A stretch of 64,000 nt of DNA. Source: Pontederia crassipes. Taxonomy: Eukaryota > Streptophyta > Magnoliopsida > Commelinales > Pontederiaceae. Made by a program: the position numbers and the translations under genes. Positions 24,834-51,123 of the stretch are shown in pieces (within the stretch, counting starts at the first letter, position 1; the number at the start of each line of letters is the position of its first letter). The notes below the pieces were generated by a model. That model made no database searches and was not told the origin of the DNA. It saw only the letters and a list, made by a program, of their open reading frames with translations. The stretch is taken from NCBI GenBank assembly GCA_030549335.1, contig CM060186.1:19211189-19275188 (forward strand). Reading direction: 5' to 3'.

Positions 24834-26532
24834 ATGCTTGATAGAAAGTTGAACCTTCTGGTCGTTGAGACCAGAAGACTGCTCCTCTATGTTGTCACAC
24901 TGTGTATTTTCCTCTTATGCGTCTCTTGTCTCACTCTTCTGAGACCTGGTACTAGGTCCTTGATACCCGAATCAGTGTTCATACTACTTCGGTCTAGTGT
25001 TGCATCGGTCCCGGACAATTCCAATCTTCCGCGTTCAGAGCCCTTGATCTCTTCTTCGATTGTTGCAACCAAAAATGAAAACATAGTAGGAAAGCACATC
25101 GTTCTTGGAAGTTCCAGTGAAACTGGTAGTTCCATAGAGCAAGTGACCAGTAAAGGATGCGACTCGAACCGGTCCGCCATCAGGGTTTATATGTATGACT
25201 TGCCTCCTGAGTTCCATTTTGGCTTGCTGGGTTGGAAGGGGGACAAGAATCAGATTTGGCCAGATGTCGGCGCAGTTGATCGGATTCCATCCTATCCAGG
25301 TGGGCTGAACTTGCAGCACAGTGTAGAATACTGGCTTGTTCTGGATCTTCTTTCTTCAAGAGTCCCCGGGATGGACAGGCCTTGCACAGCAACCCGGGAG
25401 ATGAATTCAAGTAATGCAGATGTTTTCTTCGTGCCGTTCTTCTCATCTTTGAGCTACAACCGGCATTCCAAAATTCGTGGCAGAGGAAAAGTTAACAGAA
25501 ACAAGTATCTGCAACTTGAGCTGGTGAAGTTCTTGGAGATGCAAGATGAATGGAGGCGAGGAGGCGGAAAGGATCATCTGATCGTTGCTCACCATCCCAA
25601 CAGCATGTTGGAGGCCCGGAGGAAGCTTGGCTCGGCAATGTTTGTTCTTGCAGACTTTGGAAGGTACCCAGCTGAGGTCGCCAATCTACGGAAGGATATA
25701 ATAGCTCCTTACAGACATGTAGTGCATTCAGTTGGCAACGTTTCCGCCCCATTCCGCGATCGGCCTATATTGGCATATTTCCAGGGAGCAATTTACAGGA
25801 AGGACGTAAGTTTCAATCACTTCTATGTTATCACCTTTTACTACATTTTTTCTGTAAATGTTGGTGTTCAGTGTTCAAGTTATGTTTCACAAGTTGCATG
25901 TTTCAGAAGATTGTTTTTTTGGTAAACACGTTAGGACATTGTTTAGAGTCAATCCTGGTGCTCATTCTCTTTATGGGTCATCATAGCATTCATGCCTCTT
26001 TTATTTGGTTTTGGCAAATGAAATGTTGTTTCAGGGAGGAAAGATTCGGCAGAAGCTTTATCAACTTCTGAAGGAGAAAGATGTGCACTTTGCTTACGGA
26101 AGCGTCCGGGAGAACGGCGTGAGGCACACCGGTCAGGGGATGGCCTCATCAAAGTTCTGCCTGAACATTGCCGGAGACACCCCATCCTCAAATCGGCTTT
26201 TCGATGCCATCGTGTCCCACTGTGTTCCGGTGGTGATCAGTGATGAGATTGAGCTCCCATTTGAAGATGTCTTGGACTACTCTGAGTTTTGCATCTTTGT
26301 GCGGGCTTCTGATTCTGTCAAAAGAGGTTTCCTTTTGAATCTACTCAGGGGAATCAAAGAAGACGAGTGGACTAAAATGTGGCGCAGGCTGAAGCAAATA
26401 GCTCATCACTTTGAGTATCAGTACCCGTCCAAGCCGGAGGATTCTGTTCAGATGATCTGGGATGCGGTTGCTCGAAAGATCTCTTCGATCCAATTGGATG
26501 TCAACAGAGACAACAGGTTTTACAGATCATAA
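24834..26532 (+). CDS. GT47 exostosin-family glycosyltransferase (ARAD-like)
   Basis: Two exons, 24834-25805 and 26035-26532, joined at GAC/GTAAGT...TTTCAG/GGAGGA in phase 0, encode 489 residues. An N-terminal cytosolic tail and a hydrophobic segment at about residues 16-36 (LLLYVVTLCIFLLCVSCLTLL region) make it a type II membrane protein, as expected in the Golgi. The exostosin domain starts near residue 116 (IRVYMYDLPPEFHFGLLGWKG). It includes PGGLNLQHSVEYWL and ADVFFVPFFSSLSY and, across the splice site, IYRKDGGKIRQKLY, then SKFCLNIAGDTPSSNRLFDA and SDEIELPFEDVLDY, the conserved GT47 nucleotide-sugar region. Plant GT47 enzymes build wall polysaccharides; this subgroup is usually annotated as probable arabinosyltransferase ARAD-like, but the true donor and acceptor are unproven. 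The first ATG in frame was chosen. The gene looks intact and converges with the CLE gene 650 bases downstream. Confidence 0.93.
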
Positions 26533-27187: not shown

Positions 27188-27478
27188 TCAGCATCTATTA
27201 TGTATAGGGTCTGGTCCTCTCCAAACTCTTCTTTTGCTCGTACTGTTAGGATCAAACGTTGAACGTTCGGTTCCAGGGTTCGTGTTCATGCCAGTCTTTG
27301 ACGATGGTTCTAGTTCTTCTCCCCGCCTCAGGACGAAGTTCATGTTCCTGGCTCCACACCCCTTCTCCGTGCTGCAAGCTAACAACATTATGCACAGAAT
27401 GATTGCAAGGAATCTGTGAGTGCAGAAAACTGTTGCTTCTCCACTTGGCCAAGGTGATCCTTTTCTTTTACGCGTCAT
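27188..27478 (-). CDS. CLE-family signalling peptide precursor
   Basis: A single-exon 96-codon frame. Residues 1-21 are basic then polar. A signal core FLAIILCIMLLA (23-34) follows, then a variable linker, and a CLE dodecapeptide at residues 83-94, RRVWRGPDPIHN, ending in RC. The box sits at the extreme C-terminus after SK, the place where CLE precursors are processed. CLE peptides are secreted ligands of LRR receptor kinases (CLV1/BAM/PXY class) in meristem, vascular and root signalling. GPDPIHN is shared with the CLE25/26 group, and R-R-V-x-R-G with Arabidopsis CLE45 (RRVRRGSDPIHN). An in-frame ATG 55 codons upstream (27643) exists, but the ATG at 27478 places the hydrophobic core correctly and gives a usual length. 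Unusual: tryptophan at peptide position 4, where most CLEs have proline. The gene is distinct from its neighbours and looks intact. Confidence 0.88.
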   Translation of the reverse strand: MTRKRKGSPWPSGEATVFCTHRFLAIILCIMLLACSTEKGCGARNMNFVLRRGEELEPSSKTGMNTNPGTERSTFDPNSTSKRRVWRGPDPIHNRC

Positions 27479-29270
27479 TGCTGTATCTGCAAGTCTTTGC
27501 TGTTGGATCAGACCACCCGAAACACCACTCGGAGAATTTGGATGCATTTCAATCATATGCCTGCAGCCTGAAGCAGAGGTAAGGCTGCTCGGAAAAGCTT
27601 CTGACAGGAATGAATAAAGAGATCGTTGCACAAACAACACCATGGGAGGCTAAGCATCTTTCCATCGGTCCTCCTGTCTTCTCTGCTCCATATCCACTTC
27701 ACTAAGCTCACACTTTGTCCCCTCTAAAGATCCTCTAAATGCTTTAAGGTGCACAGAAAAAGGAACTGGTACTTGGTTTCTTGTGCTAAATGAGCTACTT
27801 TTTATGCTTTTTCCCGAGCCAATGCATTCATATACCAAACCTTTTTCCTTGGGTTTTGCCGTTATCTTCAATAAGTTTCCTCATCTATTGTCTTCTATCC
27901 ACGATGTACTGTTTCATTATTCGAACTGATTCTAATAATGGCACTGCATAATCACGTGAACTTTGTAGGTTTCAAAAAGCACAAGTTTGCATCAAACTCT
28001 AGTAGAAACCAACGGGATGGCATGAAAGAAATACAAAGAAAATGGAGGATTGGTGATGATAACGAAAGGGAATTGATTGTTCTATATTTCTTGTAACGTT
28101 CTTTTATCTTTGAAATAAAGTGTAAAAAAAAAAGGAATAGTGACATCTGCTGCTTAACTTTTCTTTCAGGGTTGAACTTCAAAAATTAAAGTATTAGTTC
28201 AAGTTTGATGGGCATAATTAGTTAAGAAGATTGCGTCAGTAGATTTAAATTAATCAAGTTTTAGTAGCCATGAGATTGAATTGATAATAAATAAACATTA
28301 GCAAATGTACTATTTTTATATTATGAATGAGTAAAGTCGTTGGTTAATAACTAAGATCTCATTTTAACCTTACTAATTGAGAAATTAAGAAAATGATAAA
28401 TTTTAAGAGCAATTAAAACAAGAGAAACAAACTAAAGAAAATTATTACTTGGAAAAATAATGATTTGATTACTATGACACATAATTTATATAACTGCAAT
28501 GCAAGTGATCTTCTCAAATTAGAAATACTCTAATCAATAATAAAGTTCAACTAAGTTTTAGTTAACCAATGTTCAAAGCTTTGATTATTATCTTACGAAT
28601 AATTAGAATAAATTAAAAATTAAATCAAAAGATGCATGCCATCAAAATTTTGATTAAAGACTTTTTCAAATCATCTTAATAACAAGACAAGGTTTCTTAC
28701 GATTTTATCAATTGTGGTATGCACGAAATAAAATCAATTATATAAACTATTATGAAACCAATTACATTTCTTTTCCATATATCAATCAATTCATAAATTC
28801 TAACATCAATAGAAAACATTAAACATGAACATATATACTATTAGTGATCGGAAATAAATTAATATAAAAATGATTCCAATACATAAATATGATTTAAATT
28901 GACCCAAATAAATAACTACTCTAATAAACATAACATCAAATTTCATACGAGTATTAAAAAGGGACAAGGAAGACTACTTGTAGTCGTGAACTTTGTTTTC
29001 TTGACTCCCAAAAAATGCTTCATGAATTCTCTTCTTGCTTTGAAAATAACGCCCACAGGATGATTTTGGCCTCCTATAATTTATTTCATGTCCAGAATGA
29101 TGACGACAGACTTCCAATTGAAATTTAGATAAAATTCACCCACAAAACAAAATTAACGATTTCACTTTGAGACAGTGTTTCATGGCCATTAGAAAACTTT
29201 TAAACTCATGAATAGGATTCAAACCCATGAACAAATGCATTCACAAATATGATACAACACGTGAATTGTC
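27479..29270. other. CLE upstream region, then AT-rich DNA without genes
   Basis: 27479-28000 is the upstream region of the minus-strand CLE gene. A second open frame at 27650-27871 is not recognisable as a protein. 28200-29270 is AT-rich with no recognised element. Confidence 0.45.
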
Positions 29271-34850: not shown

Positions 34851-35276
34851 TCACTGTGTCGTTCCGATCGAGCGCACCGTGACCCGGATGGCAAGGTGGA
34901 GCAAAAGAGGGGAATGTTGTTGTAGAGGACTCGCTGGAAATATTGTGACCTGTCCGGCAAATGAATCCAATCGGCCAAGTTCATCTCCACACAGACCCCT
35001 AACGTATTTGATTCTTTCCCCTTGAATGGTGATGTCATTGATCTTCAGTGGGGTGCCGAACTTTCCTACAATGCGAAGGATAGAGGTTGGGAGTTTGATC
35101 CAGATTGGCGATGCCATGAGATGTTCATCTAGTGGTCGAAAGAAGTGTTTGGGGAGGGAGATGTGCATGACGTTGTCATTGAGGGTCCATGGTCCCCTCG
35201 TCAAGACCCGCTTCCGATCCTCCAGATCTGCAAAGTGAAACAAGAAAAAGGAGTTAGCCAACTCTGTGAGCTTCAA
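34851..35276 (-). pseudogene. LINE ORF1 (DUF4283) remnant
   Basis: A minus-strand frame with FLFHFADLEDRKRVLTRGPW, then SLPKHFFRPLDEHLMASPIW, KLPTSILRIVGKFGTPLKI and KYVRGLCGDELGRLDSF. This is the plant-specific DUF4283 RNA-binding region of LINE ORF1 proteins. The zinc knuckle that normally follows is not clear and the frame ends early. The plus-strand frames over this place are shadows. Confidence 0.85.
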
Positions 35277-35640
35277 AGAAGCCTTTAATTACCACAGTTT
35301 TTGTAAATCCTCGCACAACTGCTCAAGCGGGACTGAGCTGTTGATGAGACGACCTAGCAGAGATTATTCGAGGGCCGTAAATCACTCAAACACTTCCTCC
35401 TGTGGTATCACGACTTCAACCTCGATGGAGTCTTGCAGACGTTTCAAATGAGCTTCGGATAAGTGATGAAAAGGATTAATGGTGATGCCACTTGATTTGG
35501 TGGTTAGTGCACTGAGATAACTAGCTTTGGAAGATTAGGAAAGAGGATGGGGACCGCTCCAAGGATGGAGGAACAAGATTGGGGAGGAGGAGGGCGAGAG
35601 AGAGGTCAGGGGCATCGGTTCGGGAGTCATTCAGTCGCGG

Positions 35641-38019: not shown

Positions 38020-40129
38020 ATGGTGGACTTCGCCATCTCAGATGAGCTGCTCGGAACCTTCGTGCCCATCGCCGTCTACTGGCTCTACTCGGGACTGTAC
38101 GTGGTGCTTGGGATGAGCGGCATGGAGCAGTACAGACTGCACACCAGGAGCGAGGAGGATGAGAAGAACGTAGTCTCCAAGGGCACCGTTGTCAGGGGTG
38201 TCCTCGTGCAGCAGGCGTTCCAAGTTGCTGTCTCGCTCCTACTGTTCACGGTACGCGGTCATTAGATTCCAATTGCTTCTCTTCTTTACCACTTAGTGAT
38301 CATGTTGAGGTCCACCATAAACCATATCGATTGCCAGCTGTCAGAGATATGTTGATTGGCCAATCTGCATTACTTTCGTCTTCCATTCATCATTTGCATG
38401 TGGCTTCTACACTTTTAATTCATATTCTAACAAGGCAGAACAAAAATGAGAACAGTATATAAATATGAAGTGGTGCAAGTGTTCGCGTCCATGTGAGGTG
38501 TCCAACATATAGAAGAGGAGCAATACTCTCTCTGTTGGTTGTTAAAGTGGTCACAAGATCAATTTGCCAACCCACAAAACAAAGCACAGCTCATCTTGAT
38601 CAATTGACAATTATGTGTTCTGCCAATAGTAAAGATTTCAAGTGGTTACATATATATATCAGATTCTCTTCTTTAGGATTCAGTTTAGAAGTTTATTGAT
38701 GAGTTAAGTGTGGAAAATTTATGTTGTAGAACTTTATAAAAATAAGGGTTGTATGTTTACTTTAACCTCCTCGATCGGCGTAGCTCCATTTGTACTCTTT
38801 TGTCACTTGTCCGGTCAACGAGCTCGAGAGTACTGGGTCTAACTTCTAAGTTCTAAGAATAACCCTCCGAGGGTGGATGGGTGGGTGGAGACTTCCAAGG
38901 TTATTTTCAACATGTTTATAATTCTTCAATAAAAACTCTTTTGTAATCCGAGAAAGTAGTATAATTAGATATAAATCTCTCAAATATTACTTTTTGTATA
39001 CATGATCTCACTTGGCATGTATAATAATAAATACTTGAGGAGTGGAAAGAATCAGAATCACTACTTCCTACCTGTTACAGACCATATAATGACCTTACTG
39101 GTGGTAAGGAGTTTGATTTTTCATTTTTCACTAGAACATTAGAATCGAAAGGCTACAAATGAAATATCAAATAGTGAGTTAACTTATGTGAACAGTATGC
39201 TAAAAAAATTACTGTATCTGTCATCTTCTTGTCATTCTATTAGTGATCATAATTGTCATATTATATTACAAATAGATCTACTGATGCTGGATATATACAG
39301 ACTACATACCACATACAATACAAGAGTTCTCTTTTAGTTTCTGCAGTGAATGACTGGATGCTTGAACATTTTTTTCTTTATCGAAAAGTTTATTTGTTCT
39401 TTTTTTTTTGTAATGAGTTGGATAGGTGCTGAAACATTTTCCTCTGAACATCATCATAAAATTGGCAAAGGCATGCATTTATGTGTAATTGAATTCATTT
39501 TAGTTTTCGGGGGAAATCTGAATTATATATATATATTTCTTCGTTTTCTGAACCAATCTATATATGTGCAGATCGTGAGCGACGACAGCGGCGTGCGGCC
39601 GCCGCAGCCATCGGCGCTGGTGGTGGCGGCGCAGTTCGCGGTCGCGATGTTCGTGATGGACACCTGGCAGTACTTCATGCACAGGTACATGCACGTGAAC
39701 AAGTTCCTGTACCGGCACGTCCACTCCAAGCACCACAGCCTGGTGGTTCCGTACTCGTTCGGCGCCCTCTACAACCATCCGCTCGAGGGCCTCGTCCTGG
39801 ACACCGTCGGCGGCGCGATATCCTTCCTCGTCTCCGGCATGACGCCGCGGACGTCCATCTTCTTCTTCTCCTTCGCCACGGTGAAGACGGTGGACGACCA
39901 CTGCGGGCTGTGGCTGCCGGGCAACCTCTTCCACCTCCTGTTCAGCAACAACAGCGCGTACCACGACATCCACCACCAGCTCTACGGCAACAAGTACAAC
40001 TTCTCGCAGCCCTTCTTCGTCGTCTGGGACAAGATCCTCGGGACCCACATGCCCTACTCCCTCCAGACCAGGGAGGAAGGAGGCCTCGAGGCGCGGCCGG
40101 TGCCTCCCATCAAGAAGAAGGATAACTGA
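38020..40129 (+). CDS. SBH: Sphinganine C4-monooxygenase (sphingoid base hydroxylase)
   Basis: Two exons, 38020-38250 and 39572-40129 (ACG/GTACGC...GTGCAG/ATCGTG, phase 0), encode 262 residues, the usual length of plant SBH1/SBH2. The enzyme hydroxylates C4 of dihydrosphingosine to make phytosphingosine (t18:0), using cytochrome b5 electrons, in the ER membrane. It belongs to the fatty-acid hydroxylase superfamily; the three di-iron histidine boxes are complete: HRYMH (114-118), HSKHH (128-132) and HDIHH (208-212). The conserved VSGMTPRTSIFFFSFATVKT and DDHCGLWLPGNLFH segments are present. The N-terminus starts MVDFAISDELLGTFVP as in the family. The C-terminal KKDN is a dilysine ER-retrieval signal. 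Exon 2 is very GC-rich, the intron AT-rich. The last 61 coding bases and the 3' flank are repeated downstream, but the gene itself is whole. Confidence 0.95.
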
Positions 40130-42273
40130 GCAAAGATTTTTAATTTAATCTGCTTGTTAATTTGATCAGAAGGACTAGCTAATTAATCACCATGCACGCG
40201 TGCATGCATGTGTTTTTTACTTTTTACGACTGGTACCATCGTTGTACTGGAATTTGATGTACCAGCATTGCACAATGAGTGTTCATAGAGCAGCATGGAC
40301 GAAGATTAAATGGAGGTCAGATAGAGAAGTGCAGACACCATCTTCTCATAGCCAGCTGCCTCCTTTTATGTACAAAAACAATCCTACTTTTTTAATTCAA
40401 TAGTATATTTTTTTGTCTAGTTTGATGCTTGAACATTACCGTGTTCAACAATCTTTTGTCTTCCGTGGAAGATGACAACAGCCACAAAAAAAAAAAAAAA
40501 AGAATGTGGGATGAGATTGATATTTGATACTTGCCCAATATAAGGGTCCGTTTCCATTATATTTTTAATTTATTTCATTAGCTCCAAAGTAACTTTTTAT
40601 TAATTAGGATAATAATATTCAATTATACTTATATTAATTTTAATGTATTGAAATTTTAAGATAAATATAATAGGAACCCGAAAAAATGTGATTCATTTCT
40701 AAATTATTTGTTAATTTAGGTTTTGACTATAACATTAGCATTCTACTTTGTAGGATTCTAGAATTGTTAGAAGTTCATCCTTAATTGAATATGTTAAATC
40801 ATTGATCATGGTAATAAAATTGTGATATTTTTCTCACATCTTATCCCAATAATTGGTATTGGATCTATTTTGAGATTGAGCAATTTTTTTCCTCAATTAT
40901 CTATCACTCGTGACCTTGTTCACATTTGGATCGCACCATAGTCGTTTGTGCTTTGAGACCTGTGGAGTGCGAAGTTTTCCTTTTCATTCTTGTAACCAAG
41001 GTTGTTTGGACCGGACCGGACCGGCCGGTCCGACCGGTCCAACCGTCGACCGCCACTTGAGACGGGTTTGGTTCGATCCTAAAACCGGAGTGACATTTGA
41101 ACCGTTTTGAACCGATCAAAACCGGACTAAAACCGTTGAACCGCCGGTTTTAGGGCAACCGGCCGGTGTACCAGCAGGGAGGAAGGAGGCCTCGAGGCGC
41201 GGCCGGTGCCTCCCATCAAGAAGAAGGATAACTGAGCAAAGATTTTTAATTTAATCTGCTTGTTAATTTGATCAGAAGGACTAGCTAATTAATCACCATG
41301 CACGCGTGCATGCATGTGTTTTTTACTTTTTACGACTGGTACCATCGTTGTACTGGAATTTGATGTACCAGCATTGCACAATGAGTGTTCATAGAGCAGC
41401 ATGGACGAAGATTAAATGGAGGTCAGATAGAGAAGTGCAGACACCATCTTCTCATAGCCAGCTGCCTCCTTTTATGTACAAAAACAATCCTACTTTTTTA
41501 ATTCAATAGTATATTTTTTTGTCTAGTTTGATGCTTGAACATTACCGTGTTCAACAATCTTTTGTCTTCCGTGGAAGATGACAACAGCCACAAAAAAAAA
41601 AAAAAAAGAATGTGGGATGAGATTGATATTTGATACTTGCCCAATATAAGGGTCCGTTTCCATTATATTTTTAATTTATTTCATTAGCTCCAAAGTAACT
41701 TTTTATTAATTAGGATAATAATATTCAATTATACTTATATTAATTTTAATGTATTGAAATTTTAAGATAAATATAATAGGAACCCGAAAAAATGTGATTC
41801 ATTTCTAAATTATTTGTTAATTTAGGTTTTGACTATAACATTAGCATTCTACTTTGTAGGATTCTAGAATTGTTAGAAGTTCATCCTTAATTGAATATGT
41901 TAAATCATTGATCATGGTAATAAAATTGTGATATTTTTCTCACATCTTATCCCAATAATTGGTATTGGATCTATTTTGAGATTGAGCAATTTTTTTCCTC
42001 AATTATCTATCACTCGTGACCTTGTTCACATTTGGATCGCACCATAGTCGTTTGTGCTTTGAGACCTGTGGAGTGCGAAGTTTTCCTTTTCATTCTTGTA
42101 ACCAAGGTTGTTTGGACCGGACCGGACCGGCCGGTCCGACCGGTCCAACCGTCGACCGCCACTTGAGACGGGTTTGGTTCGATCCTAAAACCGGAGTGAC
42201 ATTTGAACCGTTTTGAACCGATCAAAACCGGACTAAAACCGTTGAACCGCCGGTTTTAGGGCAACCGGCCGGT
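40069..42273. repeat. Tandem duplication of 1,099 bp at the 3' end of the hydroxylase gene
   Basis: 40069-41167 recurs as 41175-42273, a constant shift of 1,106 bases, separated by the 7-base filler GTACCAG. I found no difference by eye, even in the 16-base A-run (40486-40501 and its copy). The unit starts inside the last exon (CAGGGAGGAAGG), spans the stop, the 3' flank and AT-rich DNA, and ends 171 bases into a hAT element. The second copy gives the hydroxylase a displaced copy of its final codons with no promoter. Such identity means a very recent event or an assembly artefact. Confidence 0.95.
40997..41167. mobile_element. Truncated first copy of the hAT element end
   Basis: The first 171 bases of the hAT element at 42103-42862, created by the tandem duplication. 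It has the left target-site copy CTTGTAAC (40989-40996) but no right end. Confidence 0.9.
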
Positions 42274-45090: not shown

Positions 45091-48000
45091 TTTATGATAT
45101 CAGAGATAAAGTTTGGAATCTCTTGATGTCTTATAGTATAGGATAGTATGGTAAAGGTTCATGTGCTATCATTGAGCAGTCTCCACACCCTCCACCGAAA
45201 AGAACTATAAGTCAAGTTTATGTTCATGCTATTGTATGGATTGTTAATGTATTATTCCTTTATGATTAAAGGATGATCGTGTTTTTATGATTAAGGGATA
45301 AGCATGTCGAGACGATTAGAGATGATCTAGGAGCGGGAGGCCAGATCAGCCCAGATTGTTCTTGATGCACCAGAGGGCCCAGAAGGCCCAGTCACTGAGT
45401 CCCAAACAATGGCCCAGTGAGGTCGTGGACGTGGTCATGGTCGAGGTTGTACCCCAGGTGCGGACGAGGCTGAGGCCGTGGTGCGAGAGCACAGTCACAG
45501 GAGGAGTATTATGATGATCTGCCCCACCTGAGGGTAGTCAGACAAGAGGCAGCCAGCCACCACCTCGACGACGTACACAGGGAACTCGACAGGAGTCATT
45601 AGAGAACACGATCCAAGCATTTTTTAAGTTGATGAGATGCTCTGACAGATGTAAGGTCTTATATGCCACGCACATGCTTACTGAGACTGCGATGGGTTGG
45701 TGGAAGACTATAAATGCCACCAAGTTCAAGGGGCAAGAAGAAGAAGATATTCCACAGGCAAAATTCAAGGAGGCGTTTGAGACTCGTTATACACCTGAGC
45801 ACGAGCGTATTAATAAGCAAGAAGAGTTCGTATAACTGCAATGGCGGACTACCACACTTAGTTTATTCAATTGGAACAGTATTGTCCGATGTCATTCGTG
45901 GGGTGAGCCAAAGCCAATAAGTTTATACATGGGCTGCAACAAGCACTGAAGTCTGAAGTATTAATAGGAGACTGTGACAGTTTGGAAAATACAGTGAGAC
46001 TGGCCACCAAAATGGAGAAAGATCAAACAGAGCTAAAGCGAAAGCCCCAGTCAGGCCAGTGGAGCAGCACCAATCGCAAACTGATGATCGTCGATCATTC
46101 AGAAGGGACAATCGTCGCCATAGGCCCTACCCACAGAGGAAGGCTCCACGACATGCTCAAGCACAGCCAAGCCCTGCACCATTGCAGCCTTAGGTAATAA
46201 GAAGAATATGTAAGTCTTTGTTTTATGCCAATGATACAGTGAATGACATGAAACTTGGTGTTTAACAATTGAGACAGCTGCCGCTGCCATCGCGTCAGTC
46301 ATAGGTACCACAACAGAGGCCTTTATGCCCTCACTGTGGTCGTTATCGTGATGGGGAGTGCCGTAGGAGAAACGGTTTCTGTATTTAGTGCAGCCAACAG
46401 AAGCACTTTAATTGCCCTCAACTCATGAGAGAAGGCCGAGGGAATCGGGGCGCTGGAGATGCCAATCCTGTCGTGTAGGGTCGTGTGCACAACATGGAGA
46501 CAGATGCAGTGCTCAACGACAATGATGTCATTAGAGGTACTCTTCCCATTGCTGATTTATCTGCCACTATCTTATTTGACTCAGGGGTCACGCACTCATG
46601 TATTTGGAGTTATGTGCTCAAGCTCTTAGATTACCTCTACAGCATATGTCTCATGCTATGATTGTGAGGACACCTATGGAGACCCTTCACACTGCCAAGT
46701 ACATCCTGAATGTACCAGTCACCGTAGAGAAGAAGAATTTTTCTACAGATTTCATAGTCATCCTGATGGTAGACTATGACGTTATCCTCGGGATGGATCG
46801 GCTATCTTATCACGACATAGCTTTGCACTATAAGCAGAAGAAGATCATTATAGGTGCTCAAGACAAGCCCATGGCGATCATCAGAGGCACTCCATCGACT
46901 AACAGTAAAGTTATTGTCTCAACGATGAAAGCACAGAAGCTACTTCAGAAGGGATGCAGTGGATACTTAGCAAGTGTAGTCAAGACGAATGCACATGTCA
47001 CTGAGCTCCAGCAGATAGATGAGTTGAGAGAGTTCTCAGATGTGTTCCCAGAGAACACCTACATACTACCGCCAAAGCGTGAAATCAACTTCAACATAGA
47101 GCTCCTATAGGGACAGCACCCATCTCCAAAACACCTTATAGCATGGCACCCGTAGAGATGCAAGAGTTGAAGAGGCAGATACATGAGCTACTGGATAAAG
47201 GTTTCGTACACCAAGCGTCTCACCTTGCGGCGCACCAATCTTGTTCATCAAGAAGGACGGCTCTATACGACTTTGCATCGACTATAGGATGCTCAATAAA
47301 GTGACAATGAAGAACAAGTATCCCCTAACTCGCATTGATGATCTCTTCGATTAGTTGTCCAATGCATCAATATTTTCCAAGATCGACTTACGTAGTGGCT
47401 ATCATCAATTGAGAGTTATTGAGGAGGATATAACGAAAATTATTTTTCGATCGAGGTATGATCATTACAAGGTTTTGGTCATGACATTTGGATTGACGAA
47501 TGCTCCCGCAGCGTTCATGAATTTGATGAACAAGGTCTTCCAGCCATATCTAGATCAAATTGTCATTGTGTTTATTTGTAAATGACATTCTGATCTACTC
47601 ATCCTGCCTAGAGCAGCACCGGGAACACCTCAAGATAGTGCTAGAGGCCCTGAGGCAGCACAAGCTTTACGATAAGTTTTCGAATTATGGATTCTGACTG
47701 AAGGAGATTATATTTCTTGGACATATAGTATCTAAGAAGGGCATTTCAGTGGATCCAGCGAAAGTGGAGGCAGTGACAAACTAGGCAAGGTCGAAGAATG
47801 CATCTAAGATTCATAGTTTCCTCAGCTTAGTAGGTTATTATAGGAGATTCATCAGGGACTTCCAAGATCATTGCACCTCTTATGAACCTCACTAAAGTGT
47901 GAGTAGAGCTTCCAAACCCCGAAGGACCGTTTGACTTCGGCACCAATCCTCACCATACTGACAGATAGTGGAGGTTATGTGGTCTATAGTGATGAAAGTG

Positions 48001-49769
48001 AAATAGGCATGTGATGTGTACTGATGCAATATGATAAGGTCGTAGCCTATGCTTTCCAATAGCTGAAGAAGCATAAGGTCAACTACCCCGCTCATGATCT
48101 GGAGTTGGCGGCAGTAGTATTTGCTTTGAAGATCTAGAAATACTATTTATATCGAGAGACATTTGAGATCTTCACCGATCACAAGAGTCTCAAGTACATC
48201 TTAGACCAAAAGGATCTTAACATAAGACAGCGTCGATGGCTAGAGCTCCTAAAGGATTATGAATTTGCTATCAATTACCACACTGGCAAAGCAAATTCAA
48301 TTGCAGATGCATTGAGCAGTAAGTGGGAAGGCTCGCTAGCGTACATCAGACTACATGAGTACGAGATATTGCAAGAGATTGATCAATGGTGCTCCAGACT
48401 TGGCAGGAATGGCGCCCTATGGATGATGCATCAGATGAGACCCAACTTGATTGATAGGATCATAGTGGCCCAGAAGGTAGAGGTGTCAGAATGAGCTAGT
48501 AGACTTTCAGATTTCAGCAGATGAAGGAATCATATACAAGAATAAGTTATGAGTTCCAGCAGATGTAGTCCTTCGACGAGAGGTACTAGATGAGTGCCAC
48601 AAGTCAAATTTCGCTATCCACCTCGGCAGTAACAAGATGTACAAAGACGTACAGTGTAGCTACTAGTAGTTGGACATGAAGAAAGAGATAGCAGAATATG
48701 TGTCAAAATGCTTAGTGTGCCAGCAAGTGGAGTCGAGCTTTAGAAATCGTATGACAAGATGAAGCCTCTAGAGATTCCACAATGGAAGTCGGATAATATT
48801 ATCATGGACTTTGTGTCCAATTTGCCCAAGTCTAAGAAGGGTCATGATGTCACATGGGTGCTCGTGGATTGATTCACAAAGGCGGCGCATTTCATCAACA
48901 TCCAATGGAAGCAATCTGTGGAGAGCTTGTTGGACTTATACATGAGAGAGGTGGTCAGACTATATGACATTCCCGCATCTATACTATCTGATCGGGATTC
49001 CAGGTTCACCACCAGATTTTGGAGGAGTATGCAACAAGCTTTCGGCACGAGACTTAGTTACAGCACAACATTCCATCTTTAGACAGACGGACAGTCTGAA
49101 AGGACCATCCAAACGTTAAATTAAGGACATGTTGCGAGCATGTGCAATGAATTGACAGGTGACTAGGATGAGCACATTCATCTAATTGAATTTATTTATA
49201 ATAACAGTTACCATTTTAGCATCAGTATGAGACCCTTCGAGACTTTGTATGAACGACCTATCATTCACCTGCCCACTAGGGTGAAGTCAATGAGGAGAAA
49301 ATCATGAGCAAGGAAGAAATAAAAGAAGCAATGGAGAATGTTGAGAAGGTAGAGTTAACTAAGCAGAGAATGAAGAATGCACAGGGAAGGCAGAAGAGTT
49401 ATGCTGATAAGTACAGACAAGAGCAATTTTTTCAAGCTAGTGATTAGATTCTGCTGAAGGTGTCCCCTATGAAAGGGGTTATAAGGTTCATCAAGTGAGA
49501 AAAGCTCAGTCCTCGGTATGTGGGTCCCTTTGAGTTAGTAGGCGAGACAGCTTGTAGATTGACTCTGCCCCCTTCTTATGGACGAGTACATAATGTGTTT
49601 CATATGTCCATGCTCAAGAAGTACAAACACGATGTCGCTAATGTTCTACGGATTGAGGATCCAAATCTAGCTGTAGACTTGACCTTTGTCGAGTATTTGA
49701 TGCATATCGTGGAGCGCAAAGTGCAACGTCAGAAGAACAAAGATGTACCTATGGCTAGAGTAGTTTGGC

Positions 49770-51123
49770 GTAATAACTCACCCTCATGCCCGTATCATTA
49801 CGCCTGCACGCTCGTGCTTCATTGGCATGTCCATGCTATCCTGCCTGTACGATTGTGCCAATCCACTGGCACGCCCGTGCTATTACACAGTCGGATGAAC
49901 TCAGCTGGTTAGGTCATAAATCAGTCGACCGAGTGACTGAACTGATCGACCGCTCCAAGCTACAGACCGGTCGATCGCTCAACAGAGCCGGTCGACCAAT
50001 ACCTAGAACCTGAACCATGTATTACTCAACTCGAACCGGGTTTACTCCTTATTTAACCGATAGATCGAGTCTAAGCTACGAACCCGGCTCGGGTCACCCT
50101 GTACCTAGCCCGGGTTGTAACAATCCGAAACTCCATATTATGTTTCCTACTAGATCTTTGACTTTTATATGAATGCCATCTATTTCAATGTTGATTGAAC
50201 TCAGTTATGACCATGATTTATCCCTGATTTAAGATATTGACCCTAGTATTGATTCACTCTATTGTCGATCCATTATTTCCCACATCATGAACAATAATGA
50301 ATGACGAGTTTCTAAAGTGATTAACAAGTTAAGATGGAAGATGAATACTGGGTTGTCAGTCTATGCCAAATATCTCAAGATAAGTCGCTCCCTTGATCAT
50401 GGTTTGATCACCCTTAACCCGCATAAGGCTATATAATTTCGCTCGGCATACCCCATGAATAATCTAAAGGCACCTAAAATCACTTGATTTCTAGGTATGA
50501 TTCAAGATTAAGAAGTATGTTCAAGTAAATTAAGCATGAATATCAAGTCAAGTATCGTTATGATTTATGTCATGATTATCAAGCCTGCTATTGATTCTAA
50601 GTTTGTCATGTATCACATGATCCGACTGCTTATCGACATCTATTGACTTACATTATTCATGATATGTGATGACTCCATGCTCAATCCCTGGCCATGATAA
50701 GTTTATATCATCATTTTTTATTTATACTATTTAAGGTTATGCATTGTATACTTTATTGGTTCTCCACTAGGCTGTAAAGTTTGCGGGAGGACTTCCTTCC
50801 CTATGTTTGATTTTCACAAGGTCAAGTTCGTGATGGTGTTGAGTTAGTGTGTTGCGACAGAGCTCAAGCGACGATAAAGCACATGAACCAAAGGGCCTAG
50901 TTGTGTGTTTTCTTTTCTGTATTTATTATGAACTATGATATAATCATGATACTATTCTTTGAGATCATGTAATAACGTTTCAACGTCGGCTTCTTATATT
51001 CTTTTCACATCTCCCTTTTATTTCATTGCTCGCATGTTCTATAGATTGGTCAATACCATAGCATTTGTAACGATCTCAGATTGATCTTCGCCACATGGCG
51101 TTGGTCAATTTGGGGGCGTTATA
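49770..51123 (+). repeat. Right LTR of the gypsy element
   Basis: Begins just after the chromodomain-like segment, at GTAATAACTCACCCTC, and ends GGGGCGTTATA. Collinear with the left LTR. Confidence 0.85.

Follow-up and report, generated by a model that had tools for sequence, protein, structure and literature searches.

A diverged CLE45-type peptide gene with tryptophan at box position 4 in Pontederia crassipes

The window, the 64,000-nucleotide stretch of DNA analyzed here (C4:19211189–19275188), carries on its minus strand an intact 96-codon frame at 27188–27478, which runs from ATG to TGA without an internal stop and ends in SKRRVWRGPDPIHN-RC. An earlier note had read this frame as a 96-residue CLE precursor with tryptophan at peptide position 4, and we verified its coordinates, its intactness, and its C-terminal box. 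The final residues of the 96-aa precursor are KRRVWRGPDPIHNRC (longer tail, SKRRVWRGPDPIHNRC). Residues 83–94 form the conserved 12-residue CLE box near the C terminus, RRVWRGPDPIHN (27197–27232, minus strand), in which Trp4 is read directly. Ten of the 12 residues equal the CLE45-type box RRVRRGSDPIHN; the two differences fall at positions 4 and 7 (R4W and S7P), and the CLE45 residues at positions 1–3 and 8–12 are all retained. The precursor is short and its middle is variable, with 38–46% identity to its three nearest relatives (L004, L005, and L007).

Hydropathy marks a hydrophobic core, FLAIILCIMLLAC, at residues 23–35 (27374–27412, minus strand), which would be the core of a presumed signal peptide. 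The 12-residue stretch of highest hydrophobicity starts at residue 23 and has a mean Kyte–Doolittle value of 3.29, above the 2.61 and 2.96 of L004 and L007. The core lies 22 residues in, after a stretch with a charge of +4 and a changed start. By hydropathy alone, secretion of the precursor is plausible. Translation may start farther upstream, since the same frame stays open there, with ATGs at 27643, 27556, and 27547, and would encode 151 aa from the first of these. Profile searches of the frame against Pfam and NCBIfam gave no matches. CLE45-type relatives were likewise without a CLE match (five tested in Pfam and two in NCBIfam), and the sole profile matches of L007 were unrelated and below the cut-offs.

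The note had also described a single-exon CLE gene beside the 3′ end of a GT47 gene, and this is how the locus reads: the CLE frame has one exon and stands tail to tail with a GT47 (exostosin) gene (PF03016 by Pfam; 24834–26532, plus strand; exons 24834–∼25800 and ∼26036–26532, limits approximate), with 655 bp between the two stops. As a marker of synteny, the GT47 gene was rejected. The GT47–CLE neighborhood is not conserved, since no G-x-[DN]-P-I-H-N place lies near the GT47 paralogues, which are found on C7, C8, and C12 and are at most 73% alike. Farther along lies a fatty-acid hydroxylase frame (PF04116 by Pfam; 39350–40126, plus strand). Two tandem 1,099-bp copies, 100% identical, occupy 40069–41167 and 41175–42273, the first starting inside the end of the hydroxylase frame; either they arose by duplication very recently or they are an artefact of the assembly. 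The window also contains a GASA (gibberellin-regulated) exon (PF02704, 9469–9711). Further frames, at 1215–1610, 34851–35288, and ∼45518–49912, include ones with a FAR1 domain (PF03101) or DUF4283 and ones that look retroelement-like by eye.

We searched the window's own genome (1.13 Gb, 43 contigs) for the box pattern G-x-[DN]-P-I-H-N and found 23 places, compared with 2 for the reversed control. Read in frame, three of these (L002, L003, and L010) lack CLE context, which leaves the window gene (L006) among 20 that have it. Nine are CLE45-like with Arg4 (L004, L005, L007, L008, L009, L013, L016, L019, and L020), six encode RVPNGPDPIHN (L014, L015, and L021–L024), and four are TDIF-like (L011, L012, L017, and L018). 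A pattern requiring Trp4 matched one place in the genome, the window gene, and none in the control. The string RRVWRGPDPIHN and shorter strings with Trp4 had no match in the main texts searched, which include few subscription papers; the positive control RVRRGSDPIHN occurs in five of these papers. Searching the genome with the L004 protein returned 18 places at E values up to 10, with the window gene seventh (E = 0.005). Besides the pattern search, this was the only search to link the window locus with its relatives; genome searches with L004 DNA, window DNA, and the upstream-frame peptide described below did not. Another place found with the L004 protein, L056 (C11:23076940–23077113), is 61% identical over 59 residues to L004 residues 21–79 and has no box; it is possibly a CLE-less relative or an effect of composition alone.

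In a tree of the 10 CLE45-like precursors of this genome, with the RVPNG genes left out, the window gene grouped with L004, L005, and L007 at 99/98. The window gene has the longest branch (0.85, with 0.4 for the next), and a long-branch warning was raised. All three relatives carry the box RRVRRGSDPIHN and share with the window gene the box frame and an (F/Y)DPx..S stretch before it. They differ from the window gene in having Arg4 and Ser7 and in being longer; the window precursor has a shorter spacer and a longer stretch before the hydrophobic core. The likeness continues into upstream DNA, where L004 and the window share four collinear stretches (78% over 99 bp with E = 4e-16, 89% over 37 bp, and two shorter ones), and the upstream DNA of L005 and L007 is also collinear with the window. 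The first block lies at 27580–27678 on the minus strand (77.8% over 99 bp with L004 and L005; 74.2% over 124 bp with L007, partly beyond these limits) and the second at 27757–27792 on the same strand (89% over 37 bp with L004 and L005; 91% over 35 bp with L007). Against L008, L009, L013, L016, L019, and L020, the upstream DNA gave nothing at an E value of 0.05, L016 coming closest with 85 bp at 0.058; a multiple alignment showed a short upstream likeness of the window to L013, L016, L019, and L020.

The hydroxylase, a genome search showed, has paralogues near all three relatives: at C3:31.444–31.489 Mb with the CLE gene at 31.531, at C4:13.895–13.937 Mb with the CLE gene at 13.970, and at C4:52.207 Mb with the CLE gene at 52.252. 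At these places the minus-strand copies and their CLE gene stand in divergent orientation, which is also the arrangement of the window; C3:31.489 and C4:13.937 each hold a plus-strand copy with the reverse orientation. No G-x-[DN]-P-I-H-N place lies within 1 Mb of the hydroxylase matches on C2, C5, C6, C17, C18, C23, and C30. Within this genome, both the tree and the hydroxylase synteny show common descent with CLE45-type genes. On this sequence evidence, the window gene is almost certainly a CLE45-type paralogue rather than a new class of ligand. The tree grouping, the collinear upstream blocks, and the hydroxylase neighbor in the same divergent orientation mark it as the product of a segmental, probably whole-genome, duplication that shares an ancestor with L004, L005, and L007 and has diverged since.

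Relative to these paralogues, the 5′ end of the gene shows signs of remodeling or decay, which the note did not mention. The start Met of L004, L005, and L007 stands directly before the hydrophobic core and aligns with Thr16 of the window precursor (ACA, 27431–27433, minus strand), and translation in the window must therefore begin elsewhere. Opposite the ATG at 27478, L004 and L005 have an upstream ATG that heads a 12-codon stretch unjoined to the CLE frame. In both of our alignments, the window lacks the TATA-like site (read by eye) that is TATATAA in L004 and L005 and TATTTAA in L007. In one alignment the window sequence is interrupted by 118 gap columns, which hold 99 nt of L004, 96 nt of L005, and 118 nt of L007; in the other, window DNA is aligned with the TATA-like site. 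The size of any promoter deletion is therefore uncertain. Separately, L060 (C9:65245119–65245282) is 74% identical over ∼160 bp to the L004 DNA that separates the upstream frame from the start codon.

Upstream of the paralogues lies a 23-codon frame, MERYLASQGFVFxSSLFIPVRxF, which is kept at positions 887–958 of L004 and of L005 and at 913–984 of L007; its relative in the window, MERCLASHGVVCATISLFIPVRSF... (27549–27665, minus strand), is changed and longer. A genome search with the upstream-frame peptide matched L004, L005, and L007 and missed the window copy. Between the window and L004, differences at codon positions 1, 2, and 3 of this frame number 3, 5, and 8, a weakly coding-like distribution. 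In L013, L016, L019, and L020, the DNA is alike at the end of the upstream frame, and the likeness extends beyond the stop; a 21-codon frame occurs there in L013 and L016, and none of at least eight codons occurs in L019 or L020. The conserved stretch may encode a regulatory upstream peptide; it is no less likely to act as a DNA or RNA element. PMC9305500 mentions neither CLAVATA nor CLE45.

We looked for a second copy of the window gene in the genome. In a protein search, 1 of 13 candidates matched at an E value of 0.001, and this was the gene itself. A first search with window DNA scored 40 of 876 candidates, mostly a repeat near the end of the query, and for this reason we chose a repeat-free stretch, which found itself alone. 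Both DNA searches missed known distant paralogues and thus speak only against a close copy. L004 and L005 differ by 62 mismatches in 3,047 aligned columns, which indicates that C3 and C4 carry partner copies at those loci. At the window locus, no partner was found in the genome for the CLE gene, for the GT47 gene (best other match, 73%), or for the hydroxylase (best others, 84–85%). The L004 protein search of the genome found no close partner of L007.

To compare constraint with decay, we counted changes in the last 22 codons. Between the window gene and L004 there are 21 base and 6 residue differences, the same numbers as for L005, and none of 5,000 random placements was as conservative; from L007 the gene differs by 19 bases and 7 residues (15 of 5,000). 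This test sums both lineages, and over the two together these codons look protein-constrained, with few changes clearly the window's own. From Lys82 to Asn94, in a comparison of 14 rows that left out six L021/L024-type and TDIF-like places, the codons unique to the window are three synonymous ones (AAA, GAC, and CAT) and two replacements (R4W and S7P). Two more window-only synonymous codons, CCT and AGA, lie just outside, and Pro7 is also present in the RVPNG rows. Three synonymous changes against two replacements are too little to prove continuing constraint.

Position 4 had been proposed as a receptor contact at which Trp would change receptor preference. The structural record speaks against the contact: Hyp4 faces the solvent and is not recognized in the TDR–TDIF crystal structure (PMC4979064), and Ala at Hyp4, Ser5, or Hyp7 has no significant effect on TDR binding, the peptide being anchored by positions 1–3 and 8–12 (PMC5383425). 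These data come from TDR and not from BAM3, whose ectodomain binds CLE45 with a Kd of ∼120 nM (PMC5538625). Since the placing of CLE45 on BAM3 was inferred from another complex (PMC5538625), Trp4 may yet be of consequence for BAM3 or for a co-receptor. An altered receptor preference is therefore a weak proposal, against which stands structural evidence from one receptor, TDR. The background given for position 4 was right about Arg4 in CLE45, but a residue other than Pro is unexceptional there, since Arabidopsis boxes have Pro, His (CLE16 and CLE17), Lys (CLE20), or Arg (CLE45) (PMC5538625); it is Trp that is exceptional. Arabidopsis CLE45 (RRVRRGSDPIHN, a BAM3 ligand; PMC5538625) shares 10 of 12 residues with the window box, including positions 1–3 and 8–12, Arg5, and Gly6, and has Arg4 and Ser7 where the window box has Trp4 and Pro7. 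CLE25 (RKVPNGPDPIHN) and CLE26 (RKVPRGPDPIHN) have G-P-D-P-I-H-N in common with the window box, CLE26 also Arg5, but both carry Pro4 and Lys2 (PMC5538625). Among the CLE motifs of 69 species, the commonest in monocots is RRVRRGSDPIH, and aromatic residues, Trp included, are described as very scarce (PMC7552357). The W-type CLE candidates reported there resemble the window gene in having Trp in a CLE45-related motif, but their Trp is at position 1, and all 13 are from dicots (PMC7552357).

We regard it as somewhat better than an even bet that this diverged segmental duplicate is still a gene for a CLE45-like ligand. If transcribed, its precursor would be secreted and then cut to approximately RRVWRGPDPIHN, with Pro7 now open to hydroxylation, and the mature peptide would signal through the BAM-type receptor kinases that recognize CLE45 peptides, as a CLE45-like ligand that is either redundant or weakened. 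Because the linker with Trp4 and Pro7 points away from the receptor in TDR–TDIF, little change in receptor choice would be expected. The same origin could instead have led to a decaying duplicate that no longer works as a ligand, with a frame that remains open owing to its short length and the recency of decay, and with Trp4 as drift; we find this the less favored reading, though a serious one. The loss of the aligned start codon and of the TATA-like site, the longest branch in the tree, and the lack of a second copy in the assembly, though L004 and L005 form such a pair, would all fit decay, and the gene's role could be filled by the nine other CLE45-like loci. Yet the frame has neither a stop nor a frameshift, residues 1–3 and 8–12 are all retained, constraint is seen in the last 22 codons when the two lineages are summed, the upstream blocks persist, and another in-frame ATG precedes a strong hydrophobic core. 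Between a working ligand and a fading duplicate, the call appears to be about even.

That Trp4, with Pro7, made a neofunctionalized ligand by altering receptor or co-receptor choice or processing is improbable in our estimation. The scarcity of Trp in CLE motifs (PMC7552357), the lack of any other match to the Trp4 pattern in this genome, and the placing of the two replacements among otherwise retained residues agree with such a change, whereas a position 4 that faces away in TDR–TDIF and tolerates Ala (PMC4979064, PMC5383425), and that already varies among Arabidopsis CLEs (Pro, His, Lys, and Arg; PMC5538625), argues against it. We likewise doubt strongly that a Trp4 preference (co-receptor, receptor, or processing) was fixed in a working ligand after duplication along with a remodeled promoter and start. 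A chance open frame ending in a CLE-like string would explain the missing Pfam and NCBIfam matches, but the CLE45-type relatives tested also lack a CLE match, and homology beyond the box, seen in the tree, the common upstream blocks, and the common hydroxylase neighbor, rules it out for practical purposes. The box and the (F/Y)DPx..S stretch shared with three longer precursors, and pattern counts that exceed the reversed controls, likewise put the frame beyond chance.

The window gene is thus real and of an ordinary kind for a plant, with an unusual Trp4. With it, the genome has a diverged CLE45-type duplicate alongside its nine other CLE45-like loci. If active, it would offer a natural test of whether CLE position 4 matters, given that TDR structures show it facing away; if inactive, it would illustrate the fading of small duplicates. 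Elsewhere in the genome, the four TDIF-like loci (L011, L012, L017, and L018) carry at least two TDIF-like motifs per precursor, for example HEVPSGPNPIGN and EAVPSGPDPIHN; genes with several TDIF-like motifs are reported from switchgrass (PMC8496505).
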